A DNA stretch of 64,000 nucleotides from Streptomyces sp. B1I3 (GTDB lineage: Bacteria; Actinomycetota; Actinomycetes; Streptomycetales; Streptomycetaceae). Made by a program: the position numbers and the translations under genes. The notes under the pieces were generated by a model, which did not search any database, was not told where the DNA came from, and worked only from the letters and a program-made list of their open reading frames with translations. Location: assembly GCF_030816615.1 (NCBI RefSeq), contig NZ_JAUSYD010000001.1, positions 6,780,501 to 6,844,500 of the forward strand, given 5' to 3'. Below are positions 4,567 to 34,480 of the stretch, in pieces. Each line of letters starts with the position of its first letter. Within the stretch, counting starts at the first letter, position 1.

Positions 4567-5403
4567 TCAGGTGGTGCCACGCCCTGGGAACCTGACAGCC
4601 CGCGACGACGCGGGGTCGGCGCACGGGCATCCGTCGGGACGTGCGGCTGATGCCGCATGCCCGACCGGATGCCGGCTCCCGTCCGGTGGGAGGTGGACCT
4701 TCACCGGCGGTCGGACCGGGGCGTCGCCGGTCGGCGAAGGGGCCGCGCACGGACGCAGGACCATGAGCGAGCCTTCCGGGGCCGCCACCATGGCGAAGGG
4801 GAACCGGTCGAGTTCGAGACAGAGGGCGACGTCATCAGGATGGACTCCTCGACGCACGCCCTGCGCCAGCTCGGCGGCGGCGCGCGACTCGGCGGCGCGG
4901 CGGAGGAACCCGGCAGCATCCGTCCCGGGCCCGGCGGCTCTGCGGGCGATGTACTGAGCGCACGCCAGATCCTCATCGGCGTGCCCGTCTTCGCCGGTGA
5001 CCACGAACGTCACGTCGTCATGCTTGCGTGTCCGCAAGAGCCGAGCCGTCGCCTCCGCCACCACGAAGCCGGCGCACAGCACCAGCGACGCCTCCTTGAC
5101 CGCGAGCGCGCCGACCGTCCCCGCCGTGGTCTTCTGCACGACGGTCCGTCCGCCAAGGTCCATGGCCCGCAGCAGCCCCGGCGAGTTGACGGCGTCGAAC
5201 CCGGGGGCGGGCGGACCGTCCTTGATCGTCATCCAATCCGGGTGGCGCGCCTTGAGTGTCAGGGCTTCGTCCAGCGACTCGGAAAGAACGATCCTTTCCG
5301 CGCCCCGGCCAAAGGCCCAGGCGGCCACCGTGAAGGCACGCATGACGTCGACCACGACCGCATCTCCACGGAGCCATGCCGTACAGCCTGGCGAAATGCT
5401 CAC
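4567..5403 (-). CDS. ComB-like 2-phosphosulfolactate phosphatase family protein
   Basis: About 278 residues. VVVDVMRAF near residue 16, [15 protein letters not shown] and the [11 protein letters not shown] stretch match ComB, the Mg-dependent 2-phosphosulfolactate phosphatase of coenzyme M synthesis in archaea. In actinomycetes, which lack coenzyme M, the substrate of such homologues is unknown. The C-terminal 40 residues are low-complexity and uncertain. The start is not certain: GTG 5403 and GTG 5412 are both possible and both overlap, on the other strand, the ATG of a HipA-like fragment. The gene converges with the secreted-protein pair. Confidence 0.75.
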
Positions 5404-5521
5404 AGAAGTCACCGCGACCCGGTATGTCACCCCCCTGCGGGAATGTGGATCGCTGCCCGGGATCGTCGAGGCCGACGACCTCGGCACGTACGTCGTGAAG
5501 TTGTCCACCTGGCGGCGCTGA
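5396..5521 (+). pseudogene. 5' fragment of a HipA-like kinase gene
   Basis: Forty-one codons that match the first ~38 of the intact gene at 7641. Residues TRYVTPLRE, then [15 protein letters not shown] and the following Lys are shared. A stretch of about 45 bases is identical, while the first codons differ more. After YVVKL the reading changes to STWRR and stops, so the kinase body is gone. It is a broken paralogue or the edge of an old insertion into the locus. The start overlaps that of the divergent ComB-like gene. Confidence 0.8.
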
Positions 5522-6513: not shown

Positions 6514-6885
6514 GTGACGGGAAGCGTGCAGGACAGCCAGGGCGAGGCGGGGGTGCGGTATGACGTGTTTCACACCGACTGCCCCGCGCGCGACGTGGTC
6601 GACCATGTGACGAGCAGGTGGGGCGTCTGGGTGCTGATCTCCTTGCGGAGCAACAGCCTCCGGTTCTACGAGCTGCGCGAGAGCATCCAGGGCATCAGCG
6701 AGAAGATGCTTGCTCAGACGCTGCGGGCGCTGGTCCAGGACGGCCTGGTCTGGCGGGAGGTCGAGCCGACGACGCCGCCGCAGGTCACCTACGGGCTGAC
6801 CGAGTTCGGCCGGGACGTCGGCGAGCCGTTGACGGAGATCTTCGACCGGATCACACGGCGACTGTCGCCGCAGAGCACGGGCTAG
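6514..6885 (+). CDS. HxlR-family transcriptional regulator
   Basis: A 123-residue MarR/HxlR winged-helix protein. CPARDVVDHVTSRWGVWVLI carries the family's N-terminal Cys followed by the W-x-x-x-I core. The LRFYELRESIQGISEKMLAQTL stretch is the recognition-helix motif, and LTEFGRDV closes the wing. HxlR proteins with this Cys often respond to electrophiles or redox stress. It starts with GTG and is divergent from the NmrA-type gene it most likely controls. Confidence 0.92.
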   Translation: MTGSVQDSQGEAGVRYDVFHTDCPARDVVDHVTSRWGVWVLISLRSNSLRFYELRESIQGISEKMLAQTLRALVQDGLVWREVEPTTPPQVTYGLTEFGRDVGEPLTEIFDRITRRLSPQSTG

Positions 6886-7023: not shown

Positions 7024-7281
<258 letters not shown>

Positions 7282-7320
7282 GGTCCGGCTGCCCGGCCGC
7301 GTGTTCGCCGTCCGGGCAAC

Positions 7321-7356
7321 GATGCCGGAGCGCTTACGGATGCCGGAGCGCTTACG
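7321..7356 (+). repeat. Perfect 18-bp tandem duplication
   Basis: GATGCCGGAGCGCTTACG occurs twice without a gap (7321-7338, 7339-7356), at the junction between the beta-galactosidase and integrase remnants. It may be a recombination scar. Confidence 0.7.
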
Positions 7357-7548
7357 TACGCCTCGATCATGCTGGAAGCCGGAGAGCCGGTTGTGACCTC
7401 GGCGCGTGGCTCGGGCGCTCCTCGCCCGTGATCACCCTCGGTTACTATGCTCACTTCGTGCCGGAGGCCGGCAGCAAGGGGCGGGGCACCGTCGACGGAC
7501 TGCTCGGGGAGCGGGGAGAGCGGCACGCCAGTCGAAACTCCCCACATT
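7351..7548 (+). pseudogene. C-terminal remnant of a tyrosine recombinase (integrase)
   Basis: TYASIMLEAGEPVV in one frame is followed, after a one-base shift near 7397, by AWLGRSSPVITLGYYAHFVP, then EAGSKGRGTVDGLLGERGE. This is the end of an actinomycete plasmid or phage integrase. The catalytic Tyr of LGYYAHF is kept, but the usual His of the LGHSSP box is Arg here and the rest of the enzyme is missing. It runs in frame into the HipA-like gene, but that is accidental. Confidence 0.8.
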
Positions 7549-7640
7549 CTCCCCGGCATCGTCGACGCCGATTCTCGCCCCTGCGCCCCGGAGGAGCCGT
7601 CCGTGGATTGCAAGGCTGTAAAGATGGGTGGCCTGGAAAA

Positions 7641-8525
7641 ATGTTGGAAGAGGTTGTAGCGACCCGCTATGTCACGCCGTTGCGTGAGGGTGGCTCGCTG
7701 CCCGGGATCGTCGAGGCCGACGACCTCGGCACGTACGTCATGAAGTTCACCGGAGCGGGGCAGGGGCGCAAGACCCTCGTCGCGGAGATCATCTGCGGAG
7801 AGCTCGGCAGGAGGCTCGGCCTGCGGGTGCCCGAGCTGGTGACCATCCAGCTCGATCCGGTGATCGGGCTGGCCGAGCCGGACCAGGAGGTGCAGGAGCT
7901 CCTCAAGGCGAGTGGTGGACTCAACCTCGGGATGGACTACCTGCCAGGCTCTCTCGGGTTCGACCCGCTCGCCTACCAGGTGGACCCTGCGGAGGCCGGG
8001 CGGATCGTGTGGTTCGACGCGCTGATCAACAACGTCGACCGTTCCTGGCGCAACCCCAACATGCTCGTGTGGCACGGTGACCTCTGGCTCATCGACCACG
8101 GGGCGACCATGATCTGGCACCACAACTGGCCCGGCGCGCAGGCCTCGGCGGCGAAGCCGTACAACGCGTCCGACCACGTGCTGGCGTCCTTCGCGCCGGA
8201 CGTCGAGGCCGCGGCCGCACAGCTGGCCCCGCTCGTCACCGAGGAACTGCTCACCGAGGTGACCGCAGCCGTACCGGACGAGTGGCTGGCCGGCGAGCCC
8301 GGCTTCGACACCACGGATCTGCTGCGACGCGCCTACGTGGAACCGCTGCTGGCGCGTGCCGGAACGATCCACCAGCGGATCTCGCTGGGGGAGCCCACGG
8401 CGACAAGGCCCTCGCAGGCGCCGGGCTGGCTCACCGACCGCCTGGCCCCGCGGCCGCATCCCACCGAGAAGGACCGTGGCGCCCGGACGGGCGCAGTACG
8501 CGACAGCAAGGACGACGGCCGATGA
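7641..8525 (+). CDS. HipA-like kinase-fold protein
   Basis: A 294-residue protein with the HipA/PI3-kinase-like core: YVMKF (Lys35, nucleotide), INNVDRSWRNPN (129-140, catalytic Asp133 and Asn), and LIDHG (Asp152, metal). It lacks HipA's N-terminal domain and its length fits the short HipA-like family. Its last codon overlaps the DUF3037 start (ATGA), so the two proteins are translationally coupled. HipA itself phosphorylates glutamyl-tRNA synthetase; the substrate here is unknown. No HipB-type DNA-binding antitoxin is adjacent. A truncated copy of its 5' end lies 2.2 kb upstream. Confidence 0.85.
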   Translation: MLEEVVATRYVTPLREGGSLPGIVEADDLGTYVMKFTGAGQGRKTLVAEIICGELGRRLGLRVPELVTIQLDPVIGLAEPDQEVQELLKASGGLNLGMDYLPGSLGFDPLAYQVDPAEAGRIVWFDALINNVDRSWRNPNMLVWHGDLWLIDHGATMIWHHNWPGAQASAAKPYNASDHVLASFAPDVEAAAAQLAPLVTEELLTEVTAAVPDEWLAGEPGFDTTDLLRRAYVEPLLARAGTIHQRISLGEPTATRPSQAPGWLTDRLAPRPHPTEKDRGARTGAVRDSKDDGR

Positions 8526-8905
8526 GTCAGCGCGATGTCTTCGAGTACGCGGTGGTGCGCGTCGTCCCGCGGGTCGAGCGTGGTGAGTGCTTCAACGCGG
8601 GCGTGCTGGTGTACTGCCGGGCCAAGTCCTTCGTCGCCGCGCGGACGCACCTGGACGAGCGCAAGCTCATGGCGCTGGATCCGGACGCCGATGTGGCCGG
8701 TGTCCAGGCCGCGCTGCGTGCGGTCGAAGGGGTCTGCGGCGGCGGTGAGGCGGCGGGCCAGGCGGCCGGCGACGACGCGGGTCGGCGCTTTCGGTGGCTG
8801 ATCGCGCCGCGCTCCACGGTCGTCCAGCCCGGTGCGGTGCACAGCGGGCTCACCGCCGACCCGGCCGCCGAGGTGGAGCGGTTGCTGGACCTGCTGGTGC
8901 GCTGA
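8522..8905 (+). CDS. DUF3037 family protein
   Basis: A 127-residue protein. FEYAVVRVVPRVERGECFNAGVLVYC at the start and RFRWLIAPRSTVVQPGAVHSGL later are the signature of DUF3037, a family of unknown role that usually follows a short HipA-like gene exactly as here. The ATGA overlap with the kinase gene argues for a fixed ratio of the two products and possibly a complex. Whether this is an antitoxin, a substrate or a partner enzyme cannot be told from sequence. Confidence 0.88.
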   Translation: MSQRDVFEYAVVRVVPRVERGECFNAGVLVYCRAKSFVAARTHLDERKLMALDPDADVAGVQAALRAVEGVCGGGEAAGQAAGDDAGRRFRWLIAPRSTVVQPGAVHSGLTADPAAEVERLLDLLVR

Positions 8906-9105: not shown

Positions 9106-9867
9106 ATGTCCACCACCGAGCAGCGCGTCGCCATCGTGACGGGAGCGGCACGGGGCATCGGCGCCGCCACGGCCATACGCCTGGCGGCCGAGGGCCGCGC
9201 CGTCGCCGTACTCGATCTCGACGAGGCGGCGTGCAAGGACACGGTCGAGAAGATCACCGCCGCGGGGGGTACCGCCCTGGCCGTCGGCTGTGACGTGTCG
9301 GACAGCGCCCAGGTGGAGGCCGCCGTCGCGCGGGTGGCCGCCGAACTCGGTGCCCCGACGATCCTCGTCAACAACGCGGGCGTGCTCCGCGACAACCTGC
9401 TCTTCAAGATGAGCGAGGCGGACTGGGACCTGGTCATGAACGTGCACCTCAAGGGCGCGTTCCTGATGGCGAAGGCCGTCCAGTCGCACATGGTCGAGGC
9501 CAAGTTCGGCCGTATCGTCTCGCTGTCCTCCTCCTCCGCGCTCGGCAACCGCGGGCAGGCCAACTACTCCGCCGTCAAGGCCGGGCTCCAGGGCTTCACC
9601 AAGACCCTGGCCAAGGAACTCGGCAAGTTCGGTGTCACCGCCAACGCCGTCGCGCCCGGTTTCATCGTCACCGAGATGACCGCGCAGACGGCGGCCCGGG
9701 TGGGCATGGGCTTCGAGGAGTTCCAGGCGGCGGCGGCCACCCAGATCCCCGTACAGCGAGTGGGCCGCCCCGAGGACATCGCCAACGCCATCGCCTTCTT
9801 CACGGGGGACGACGCCGGCTTCGTGTCCGGACAGGTCATGTACGTCGCCGGCGGACCGCTCAACTGA
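9106..9867 (+). CDS. SDR-family 3-oxoacyl-ACP reductase-like enzyme
   Basis: A 253-residue classical short-chain dehydrogenase: TGAARGIGAA (NADP motif), NNAGV, Ser of LSSSSALGN and catalytic YSAVK. The sequence is close to FabG of fatty-acid synthesis, but it is not in a fab operon. The pairing with a second SDR and a TetR-like operator suggests acyl or sterol-type catabolism, or redox of a secondary substrate. The pair forms an operon with a 22-bp gap. Confidence 0.9.
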   Translation: MSTTEQRVAIVTGAARGIGAATAIRLAAEGRAVAVLDLDEAACKDTVEKITAAGGTALAVGCDVSDSAQVEAAVARVAAELGAPTILVNNAGVLRDNLLFKMSEADWDLVMNVHLKGAFLMAKAVQSHMVEAKFGRIVSLSSSSALGNRGQANYSAVKAGLQGFTKTLAKELGKFGVTANAVAPGFIVTEMTAQTAARVGMGFEEFQAAAATQIPVQRVGRPEDIANAIAFFTGDDAGFVSGQVMYVAGGPLN

Positions 9868-9889: not shown

Positions 9890-10645
9890 ATGACTGTGCA
9901 GGACAGTGGCAAGGTCGCGCTCATCACGGGTGCCAGCCGCGGCATCGGCTACGGCATCGCGGAGGCGCTGGTCGCCCGGGGCGACCGGGTCTGCATCACG
10001 GGCCGCGGCGAGGACGCGCTGAAGGAGGCCGTCGAAAAGCTCGGCGCCGACCGCGCCGTCGCGATCGCGGGCAAGGCGCACGACGAGGCGCACCAGGCGG
10101 CGGCCGTCGAGCGCGCGATGGAGGCCTTCGGCCGGGTCGACTTCCTGATCAACAACGCCGGTACCAATCCGGTGTTCGGGCCCATGGCGGAGCTCGACCT
10201 GGGTGTCGCGCGCAAGGTCTACGAGACCAACGTCATCTCGGCGCTCGGTTTCGCCCAGCAGACCTGGAAGGCCTGGCAGAAGGAGAACGGCGGGGCGATC
10301 GTCAACATCGCCTCCGTCGCCGGGGTCTCCGCGTCGCCGTTCATCGGCGCCTACGGCATGAGCAAGGCGGCCATGGTCAACCTGACCCTGCAGCTGGCGC
10401 ACGAGTTCGCGCCGGCCGTCCGGGTCAACGCGATCGCCCCCGCCGTGGTGAAGACGAAGTTCGCCGAGGCACTGTACGAAGGCCGGGAGGCCGAGGCCGC
10501 AGCGGCCTATCCGCTCGGCCGGCTCGGTGTGCCGCAGGACATCGGTGGCGCTGCCGCGTTCCTCACTTCGGCGCAATCCGACTGGATCACGGGGCAGACA
10601 CTCGTCGTCGACGGCGGTATCTTCCTGAATGCCGGCGTGGCCTGA
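9890..10645 (+). CDS. SDR-family oxidoreductase
   Basis: A 251-residue classical SDR with TGASRGIGYG (nucleotide site), NNAGTNPVFG, Ser in IVNIASVAGVS and YGMSKA (Tyr-x-x-x-Lys). It is clearly related to, but distinct from, the upstream reductase, so the two probably act on successive or alternative acyl substrates. It is followed by a strong terminator that ends the two-gene unit. Confidence 0.9.
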   Translation: MTVQDSGKVALITGASRGIGYGIAEALVARGDRVCITGRGEDALKEAVEKLGADRAVAIAGKAHDEAHQAAAVERAMEAFGRVDFLINNAGTNPVFGPMAELDLGVARKVYETNVISALGFAQQTWKAWQKENGGAIVNIASVAGVSASPFIGAYGMSKAAMVNLTLQLAHEFAPAVRVNAIAPAVVKTKFAEALYEGREAEAAAAYPLGRLGVPQDIGGAAAFLTSAQSDWITGQTLVVDGGIFLNAGVA

Positions 10646-12428: not shown

Positions 12429-13112
12429 GTGACCGACACCGACCTGCTGCCCGAACCCTGGCGCGGCGTCCTCGGCGAGGAGCTTCAGAAGCCGTACTTC
12501 AAGGAGCTCATGGAATTCGTCGAGGAGGAGCGGTCGCGAGGGCCGGTGTATCCGCCGCGCGAGCAGGTCTTCGCCGCCCTGGAGGCCACTCCGTACGACC
12601 GCGTGAAGGTCCTCGTCCTCGGCCAGGACCCGTACCACGGCGAGGGCCAGGGGCACGGACTCTGCTTCTCCGTCCGCCCCGGGGTGAAGACGCCCCCGTC
12701 GCTGCGCAACATCTACAAGGAGATGAACGACGAGCTGGGCCTGCCGGTCCCGGACAACGGCTACCTGATGCCCTGGGCCGAGCAGGGTGTCCTGCTGCTC
12801 AACGCGGTGCTGACGGTCCGGGGCGGCGAGGCCAACTCGCACAAGGCGAAGGGCTGGGAGAAGTTCACCGACGCGGTGATCCGCGCGGTGGCCGACCGGC
12901 CCGACCCGGCGGTCTTCGTCCTCTGGGGCAATTACGCGCAGAAGAAGATACCGCTGATCGACCAGGAGCGTCATGCCGTGGTGAAGGGCGCGCACCCCTC
13001 GCCGCTCTCCGCGAAGCGGTGGTTCGGCTCCCGTCCCTTCACCCAGATCAACGAGGCCGTCGCCGCACAGGGGCACCAGGCCATCGACTGGCGCATCCCG
13101 GACCTGGGCTGA
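12429..13112 (+). CDS. ung: Uracil-DNA glycosylase, family 1
   Basis: A 227-residue base-excision-repair enzyme that removes uracil from DNA. Motifs: GQDPYH (65-70) with the catalytic Asp, LLLNAVLTV, and the HPSPLS loop near residue 190 with the catalytic His. The length is standard for actinomycetes. The GTG at 12429 has GGAGG eight bases upstream; an in-frame GTG at 12423 is too close to that site. Confidence 0.97.
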   Translation: MTDTDLLPEPWRGVLGEELQKPYFKELMEFVEEERSRGPVYPPREQVFAALEATPYDRVKVLVLGQDPYHGEGQGHGLCFSVRPGVKTPPSLRNIYKEMNDELGLPVPDNGYLMPWAEQGVLLLNAVLTVRGGEANSHKAKGWEKFTDAVIRAVADRPDPAVFVLWGNYAQKKIPLIDQERHAVVKGAHPSPLSAKRWFGSRPFTQINEAVAAQGHQAIDWRIPDLG

Positions 13113-33292: not shown

Positions 33293-34480
33293 ATGCCCAA
33301 GACGGCATACGTGCGCACCAAGCCGCACCTGAACATCGGCACCATGGGCCACGTCGACCACGGCAAGACCACCCTGACCGCGGCCATCACCAAGGTCCTC
33401 AGCGACCGGGGCAGCGGTACCTTCGTGCCGTTCGACCGGATCGACCGGGCGCCCGAGGAGGCGCAGCGCGGCATCACCATCAACATCTCGCACGTCGAGT
33501 ACGAGACGGACACCCGGCACTACGCGCACGTCGACATGCCCGGACACGCCGACTACATCAAGAACATGGTCACCGGAGCGGCGCAGCTCGACGGCGCGAT
33601 CCTGGTCGTCTCCGCGCTCGACGGCATCATGCCGCAGACCGCGGAGCACGTCCTGCTGGCCCGTCAGGTCGGTGTCGACCACATCGTCGTCGCCCTCAAC
33701 AAGGCCGACGCCGCCGGCGACGGCGAGGACTCGGTGCTGACCGACCTGGTCGAGCTCGAGGTCCGCGAGCTGCTCTCCGCACACGGATACGGAGGGGAGA
33801 CGCTGCCCGTCGTCCGGGTGTCCGGCCTCAAGGCCCTGGAGGGCGACCCGCAGTGGACGGCCTCCATCGAGAGCCTGCTGGACGCCGTCGACACGTACGT
33901 ACCGATGCCGGTGCGCTACACCGACGCGCCGTTCCTGCTCTCGGTGGAGAACGTCCTGACCATCACGGGCCGCGGCACGGTCGTCACCGGCGCCGTCGAG
34001 CGCGGCACGGTGCGCGTGGGGGACCGGGTGTCGGTGCTCGGCGCGGACGTCGAGACGGTCGTCACCGGCCTGGAGACCTTCGGGAAGCCGATGGAGTCCG
34101 CGGAGGCGGGGGACAACGTCGCGCTGCTGCTGCGCGGGGTCGAGCGCGACCGGGTCCGCCGCGGCCACGTGGTGGCGGCGCCCGGCAGCGTCACACCCAG
34201 GCGGCGCTTCACCGCTCAGGTGTACGTCCTGTCGGCGCGCGAGGGCGGCCGCAGTACCCCGGTCACCACGGGATACCGGCCGCAGTTCTACATCCGCACG
34301 GCGGACGTCGTCGGAGACGTCGACCTGGGGGAGGCGGCGGTGGCACGGCCCGGTGACACCGTCACCATGACGATCGAGCTCGGCCGCGACGTCCCGCTGG
34401 AGCCGGGACTGGGCTTCGCGATCCGTGAGGGCGGCAGGACGGTCGGCGCCGGCACGGTGACCGGCCTCCTCGACGGCTGA
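33293..34480 (+). CDS. tuf3: Elongation factor Tu, divergent second copy
   Basis: A 395-residue EF-Tu. G1 GHVDHGKT (19-26), effector RGITIN (59-64), G3 DMPGH (81-85, with Cys of the usual DCPGH replaced by Met), G4 NKAD (136-139). Domains II and III are complete ([10 protein letters not shown], then [17 protein letters not shown]). It is not in a str operon and is clearly diverged, as is known for tuf3 of Streptomyces, which is transcribed under starvation and differs in response to EF-Tu inhibitors. It stands alone, with its own terminator. Confidence 0.93.

Follow-up and report, generated by a model that had tools for sequence, protein, structure and literature searches.

We asked what the two adjoining genes at 7641-8905 of a 64,000-nucleotide stretch of the Streptomyces sp. 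B1I3 chromosome (the whole stretch is called the window here) could do for their host. The original prediction had described them as a HipA-like kinase coupled to a DUF3037 gene, and as a toxin-antitoxin-like or signalling pair for which no function was established. The pair is made up as follows:

7641..8525, + strand: HipA_2 (HipA-like) atypical kinase gene, 294 aa, with PF20613 and PDC-M66A matches
7680..7703, + strand: Gly-rich loop LREGGSLP of the kinase, residues 14-21, with conserved Ser19 (columns 97-100% conserved except L20, 103 sequences)
8016..8102, + strand: catalytic segment DALINNVDRSWRNPN...IDHG of the kinase, residues 126-154 (alignment of 103 sequences)
8522..8525, + strand: ATGA start-stop overlap of the kinase and DUF3037 genes, seen in the sequence
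8522..8905, + strand: DUF3037 gene, short form without C-terminal extension, 127 aa, with PF11236 match

Both ORFs proved to be real, as had been predicted: the 294-aa product scored 55.6 bits against Pfam PF20613 (HipA_2, cut-off 27) and the 127-aa product 148.5 bits over residues 9-126 against PF11236 (cut-off 22.6). The ATGA overlap is predicted to couple the two genes. The PADLOC models identified the proteins as PDC-M66A (72.5 bits for the kinase) and PDC-M66B, the DUF3037 protein covering the latter profile only to position 128 of 281. In the whole source genome there is one HipA_2 place above threshold.

Is the kinase likely to be active? Across 103 aligned pairs, K35, E49, D126, D133, R134, N138, N140, D152 and H153 were invariant, and S19 and G154 were conserved at 99%. 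Since the catalytic columns are invariant or conserved at 99%, the kinase motifs are complete, which agrees with the prediction. Ser19 may be a site of autophosphorylation, as Ser150 is in HipA. A sequence search of solved structures found nothing usable. The AlphaFold2 model (pLDDT 85.6) gave its best VIA match with CtkA (3akk_A, Z 15.9, rmsd 3.1, 208 aligned) and also matched HipA (4pu4_B, Z 12.0, rmsd 4.3, 195 aligned) and HipT (8ezr_B, Z 11.9, rmsd 3.6, 186 aligned), with PI4KII, CotH and Fam20 among the near folds (VIA Z 15.9 to 11.9). The HipA_2 protein would thus be an active protein kinase of the HipA/CtkA type. Its modelled fold likens the pair to HipBA and HipBST (4pu4_B, 8ezr_B), from which the window pair differs in that the kinase has no Pfam match to HipA_C, that a HipB gene is missing and that DUF3037 is unlike any solved fold found. 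No HipB-type antitoxin adjoins the kinase, as had been claimed; the nearest gene with an HTH is HxlR-like (6514-6885).

The model of the DUF3037 protein (pLDDT 89.7) had no convincing match in the PDB (best Foldseek E 1.6; best VIA Z 3.5). A HipS-like fold, or that of the HipS-HipA N-subdomain, was considered for it and was not adopted; no solved structure exceeded Z 3.5, an absence that decides neither way. By analogy with published relatives, we propose DUF3037 as the restrainer of the kinase.

These relatives also mean that the statement that no function is established for the pair is out of date, because their defence activity and toxicity have been published; as far as the accessible parts of two reports go, phage defence is in print (PMC12548924, PMC13092281). 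According to the available text on retron-Sda1, deletion of the kinase abolished defence against Bas51, deletion of DUF3037 was toxic and the retron parts were immaterial to defence (PMC12548924). In the E. coli system DS-6, renamed HipAD, defence was lost upon mutation of the kinase, and the second protein, DS-6B, consists of DUF3037 and DUF1829, again by the part of the report available (PMC13092281). The toxin-antitoxin-like character is thus supported for the relatives within the text accessible to us (the kinase is needed for defence and loss of DUF3037 is toxic), and by analogy such action is likely for the window pair.

How closely does the window pair resemble these systems? With HipAD, as described in the accessible text, it shares a HipA-type kinase, DUF3037, the two-gene layout and the lack of HipB, whereas DS-6B carries DUF1829 and the window DUF3037 (127 aa) stands alone, in a pair that is core and syntenic. 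With PDC-M66/retron-Sda1 it shares a kinase and DUF3037 encoded together, and its proteins match both PDC-M66 models; in contrast to that pair, which acts in phage defence, it lacks a retron and a C-terminal DNA-binding-like part. Of the traits of HipAD/PDC-M66, the window therefore has the intact HipA_2-type kinase with DUF3037 directly beside it, and lacks the patchy distribution, the mobile context and the C-terminal extension of DUF3037, the last of which may not be required for membership. One reading of this resemblance is that the pair is simply another HipAD/PDC-M66-type toxin-antitoxin serving in phage defence, which happens to be widely kept and whose kinase is freed by infection to stop growth. 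The matches to PDC-M66A and PDC-M66B, the intact motifs and the published behaviour of the relatives would fit it, but its distribution does not, and we consider it unlikely.

We surveyed 150 genomes of the same genus, source genome included. Exactly one DUF3037 match was found in 145 of them and HipA_2 in 149, while canonical HipA_C was present in 4/150. Among the five genomes without DUF3037, G010 (locus L051) has a run of N at the DUF3037 place, G050 and G079 reach a completeness of 82% and 78%, and G008 lacks both genes; G017 (L197) has an intact kinase of an orphan type, and DUF3037 was not found. L051 and L197 were considered as natural DUF3037 knock-outs and rejected, the former because of the run of N and the latter because its kinase falls among the orphan paralogues and outside the core copies. 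In L197 an ORF directly follows the kinase in the place of DUF3037; presumably it encodes a small Rdx/selenoprotein-W-like protein. Two HipA_2 matches were counted by hand in 66 genomes, one of which (G090, L196) has a single frameshifted kinase gene beside an intact DUF3037 gene, where sequencing error and kinase loss are both possible. A second HipA_2 paralogue (RSGGSVPG type; L198-L200, L202-L205) is 56-59% identical, has no neighbouring DUF3037 and appears in the tree as a duplication within the family; the ORF adjoining it looks, we presume, like malate synthase.

The position of the pair is equally constant. Besides the HxlR-like gene, the Pfam scan identified SDR genes as its neighbours, and downstream lie:

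9106..9867, + strand: SDR 1 (adh_short), same order in 19/19 genus loci
9890..10645, + strand: SDR 2, order kept in 19/19 genus loci
12438..13112, + strand: uracil-DNA glycosylase (UDG, PF03167), present in 19/19 genus loci

The order HipA-DUF3037-SDR-SDR-UDG was kept in all 19 genus loci compared (20 kb around 19 pairs, picked from long contigs), and in L001-L031 kinase and DUF3037 always stood side by side. DUF3037 was found in 59/61 genomes of the wider family and in 135/296 of the class. In a tree of HipA and DUF3037 (70 rows) 18 labels needed 17 changes, the minimum possible; most families and Bacteroidota formed one branch each, f17 and f28 being the families that did not. In ten comparisons dN/dS was 0.09-0.25, so that selection on the pair is purifying. 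The pair in this genus is therefore a core chromosomal possession that is inherited vertically, with its motifs intact and its two genes strictly paired, and the window copy belongs to a known kind of toxin-antitoxin as a short and core variant.

Outside the class, an alignment scan of genome contigs led by a Bacteroides sequence gave at least 594 relatives. The 80 examined were all Bacteroidota by title, with kinases 63-75% identical to the Bacteroides kinase, and DUF3037 followed the kinase in 79 of them; at the remaining locus (L159) too little sequence was available on the side in question. No relative was found in viral contigs with the Bacteroides-led kinase query, and phage records gave no DUF3037 match. 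Plasmid records gave 7 kinase matches; the Photobacterium plasmid pair adjoins integrases, its DUF3037 protein (278 aa) matches the PDC-M66B profile to 259, and it is a mobile, long form, the C-terminal half of which the window DUF3037 does not have. All this speaks against phage defence by the window copy: DUF3037 occurs once per genome in 145/150 genomes, and the pair in a fixed place, against 4/150 for HipA_C, and no match was found in phage records or viral contigs. The gain and loss that the original prediction had read into the locus is not borne out by these same figures, and phage defence is a possible but poorer account of the window copy than an EF-Tu-directed module. Relatives of the pair are filed as phage defence; should there be a form that is core and passed on vertically, catalogues in which each HipA-DUF3037 pair counts as a defence system would miscount it.

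Such constancy would also fit a kinase that regulated another process (metabolism, development or, as E. coli HipA, a tRNA synthetase), with DUF3037 as a regulatory subunit and no role in elongation. The pair is core and slowly evolving, fixed in the genus beside two SDR genes and UDG, and its near folds include CtkA, PI4KII, CotH and Fam20 beside HipA. Conserved placement in a metabolic operon had been named as an observation that would count against a toxin-antitoxin or defence role; this was half borne out, as placement is indeed kept within the genus, whereas 20 loci from across the class have nothing but the pair in common. The neighbours thus do not travel with the pair beyond the genus, and regulation of another process leaves unexplained the association with elfamycin clusters and the EF-Tu pattern described below. 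We regard it as unlikely, though slightly less so than phage defence.

The surroundings of the window pair had further been taken for mobile-element debris with a truncated second copy of the kinase gene. The copy exists:

5386..5502, + strand: truncated second copy of the kinase gene (5' end), 97/117 nt identical to 7631-7747

It is, however, a 5' fragment of 117 nt and not a gene. As 101/117 nt are identical to alleles of two other species, the fragment is about equally close to those alleles and to the intact gene, and for this reason it may mark a replacement event and not the loss of a second system. The debris is partly borne out: a fragment of a glycosyl hydrolase family 2 gene does lie just upstream of the kinase (7063-7278), whereas 7212-7637, considered as an integrase tail, was rejected as such, having no Pfam or NCBIfam match. 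A 2-phosphosulpholactate phosphatase-like gene (4567-5508, - strand) adjoins the truncated copy; neither it nor NmrA had a match in the loci of 20 relatives.

We then asked which process the kinase might act upon. A separate clade of the pair, new here, lies directly upstream of ccrA in most of the elfamycin (EF-Tu inhibitor) clusters found. On a plasmid of S. globosus, which the accessible text of PMC9290621 gives as a factumycin strain, the pair is flanked by a phosphopantetheinyl transferase gene and ccrA, and the cluster also contains facT, panD and P450 genes. A search for FacT in 392 genus genomes gave 7 matches, 4 of them with the cluster genes. For panD, 365 family genomes were searched and ten high-ranking places inspected, of which 3 had the cluster in addition to that of G931, the S. 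globosus genome. The eight cluster genomes include six with the pair (G931, G914, G895, G806, G645, G558) and two without (G571, G060); ccrA directly follows in 5/6, and in G806 it was not found in the stretches read. Three cluster kinases tested formed one clade apart from the core copies, and G645 and G558 have two DUF3037 genes each, i.e. the cluster copy is extra to the core one. The window copy, 53% identical to the cluster copy, is the core copy and is not inside an elfamycin cluster; because of this distance its target may differ from that of the cluster copy.

The cluster pair appears to have been described under other names. In the accessible text on the kirromycin cluster, kirHIV (783 nt) and kirHV (396 nt) count as uncharacterised, and deletion of either in S. 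collinus left kirromycin production unchanged, with the product as in wild type (PMC5818483); the aurodox homologues aurHIV-aurHV are reported at 92% and 98% (PMC9361827). In G645 and G558 the order is a 261-aa HipA_2, an approximately 130-aa DUF3037, ccrA and a hydroxylase-like ORF. Judged by size and by an order that matches kirHIV, kirHV, kirN, kirHVI, the cluster pair would be kirHIV-kirHV, the place before kirN being read from the naming order. The size and order of kirHIV-kirHV and aurHIV-aurHV fit HipA_2 and DUF3037; in print they differ from such an assignment in being uncharacterised or a 'magnesium ATPase', and the cluster clade stands apart from the window core copy. No published link of HipA or DUF3037 with elfamycins was found in the open-access literature, and a published phosphoproteome of S. 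rimosus has HipA in the reference list only.

Why would such a pair be kept in these clusters? It could phosphorylate the elfamycin itself and inactivate it, or serve biosynthesis, with no bearing on EF-Tu; its placement like an operon member before ccrA and the non-protein kinases among its related folds would agree with this. The kirHIV and kirHV deletions, in the portion of the report available, speak against it, as does the same pair being core in bacteria that, judged by the rarity of the clusters, make no elfamycin; the toxicity of a relative without DUF3037 points to a host target, and we find this explanation quite improbable. Still less probable is that the cluster copy is an addiction module stabilising the gene cluster, with no role in resistance. 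Its relatives are toxin-antitoxin systems and one copy is on a plasmid, but the others are partly on contigs that are not plasmid-sized, in two cases the main chromosome contig; the ccrA neighbour in the 5/6 loci where ccrA was in view, and the absence of the pair only where EF-Tu1 has Thr375, also speak against addiction.

This last observation concerns a site of drug resistance in EF-Tu. The A375-equivalent site, in E. coli numbering, was placed by its motif. EF-Tu1 had Ala there in 6/6 cluster genomes with the pair and read RFTIREGGRT (Thr375) in both cluster genomes without it (G571, G060); among 28 other genomes Thr occurred in one (G051, L302). The substitution A375T in EF-Tu causes kirromycin resistance (PMC5485169). 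Fisher's test gave p = 0.036 for pair versus residue 375 in the 8 genomes, a test that ignores relatedness where there is one independent event, the Thr375 genomes, G051 included, forming one EF-Tu clade. (For G051 no FacT match was listed, and its inclusion in the 392 genomes searched is uncertain.) A tree of the clusters puts both pairless ones inside the pair-bearing group, which makes loss likelier than late gain; probably a single loss took place, in the lineage with Thr375 EF-Tu. In G645 and G806 one EF-Tu was found at the thresholds used, which leaves these strains without a spare EF-Tu that would pass them. EF-Tu is reported to be kirromycin-sensitive in S. collinus and S. ramocissimus and resistant in S. 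cinnamoneus and N. lactamdurans (PMC6804068), and in S. collinus it is phosphorylated, which inhibits kirromycin binding (review PMC6822514).

The extra copies in clusters for EF-Tu inhibitors suggest that EF-Tu is the target of the kinase, and on these comparisons of sequence we propose it as the favoured one. DUF3037, co-translated with the kinase, would hold it in check, as has been shown for the published relative; once released, the kinase would phosphorylate a translation factor, of which EF-Tu is the likeliest, and thereby slow growth. In this genus the pair would be core equipment and probably a reversible brake on translation, set in stress or development. A separate clade would have been taken into elfamycin clusters, where modification of EF-Tu would protect the producer because kirromycin is reported to bind less well to its phosphorylated form. 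The proposed action is that of Doc and YabT, which, by the sources available in part, phosphorylate EF-Tu and stop translation; Doc has the Fic fold, and the window kinase is not claimed as a member of either family. The proposal as a whole, a vertically inherited kinase-restrainer module with EF-Tu as its most likely target and an elfamycin-cluster offshoot, is tentative, and we put it slightly short of an even chance.

Several observations count against it or limit it. G017 has an intact orphan-type kinase without DUF3037, and orphan HipA_2 without DUF3037 recurs. As the kirHIV and kirHV deletions left production unchanged in the text accessible, the kinase is dispensable for self-protection in S. 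collinus, and deletion of DUF3037 is not lethal there with the kinase gene present. The core DUF3037 may act in trans when kirHV is deleted, and efflux or EF-Tu3 may mask the effect of either deletion. A wider claim is rather doubtful, namely that HipA_2-DUF3037 is an ancient EF-Tu kinase module, a general elongation brake in Streptomyces, many actinobacteria and Bacteroidota and the source of EF-Tu phosphorylation in kirromycin producers, with kirHIV-kirHV as reversible, target-modifying self-resistance and HipAD as a mobile branch with the same action. If the target is EF-Tu, two questions become accessible to experiment: the identity of the kinase behind EF-Tu phosphorylation in Streptomyces, and the means by which kirromycin producers whose EF-Tu is sensitive to the drug survive their own product.

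Finally, two minor observations were made. In some relatives a TAnnnT-like element lies a few bases before the kinase ATG and suggests leaderless transcription there; in the upstream alignment with these relatives it is missing before the ATG of the window kinase. A divergent second EF-Tu gene (tuf3 type, 395 aa) lies at 33293-34480 (+ strand), ~24 kb from the pair, and a tuf3-type gene and the pair were at most 40 kb apart in 21 of the 26 genomes in which both places are known (hand count).
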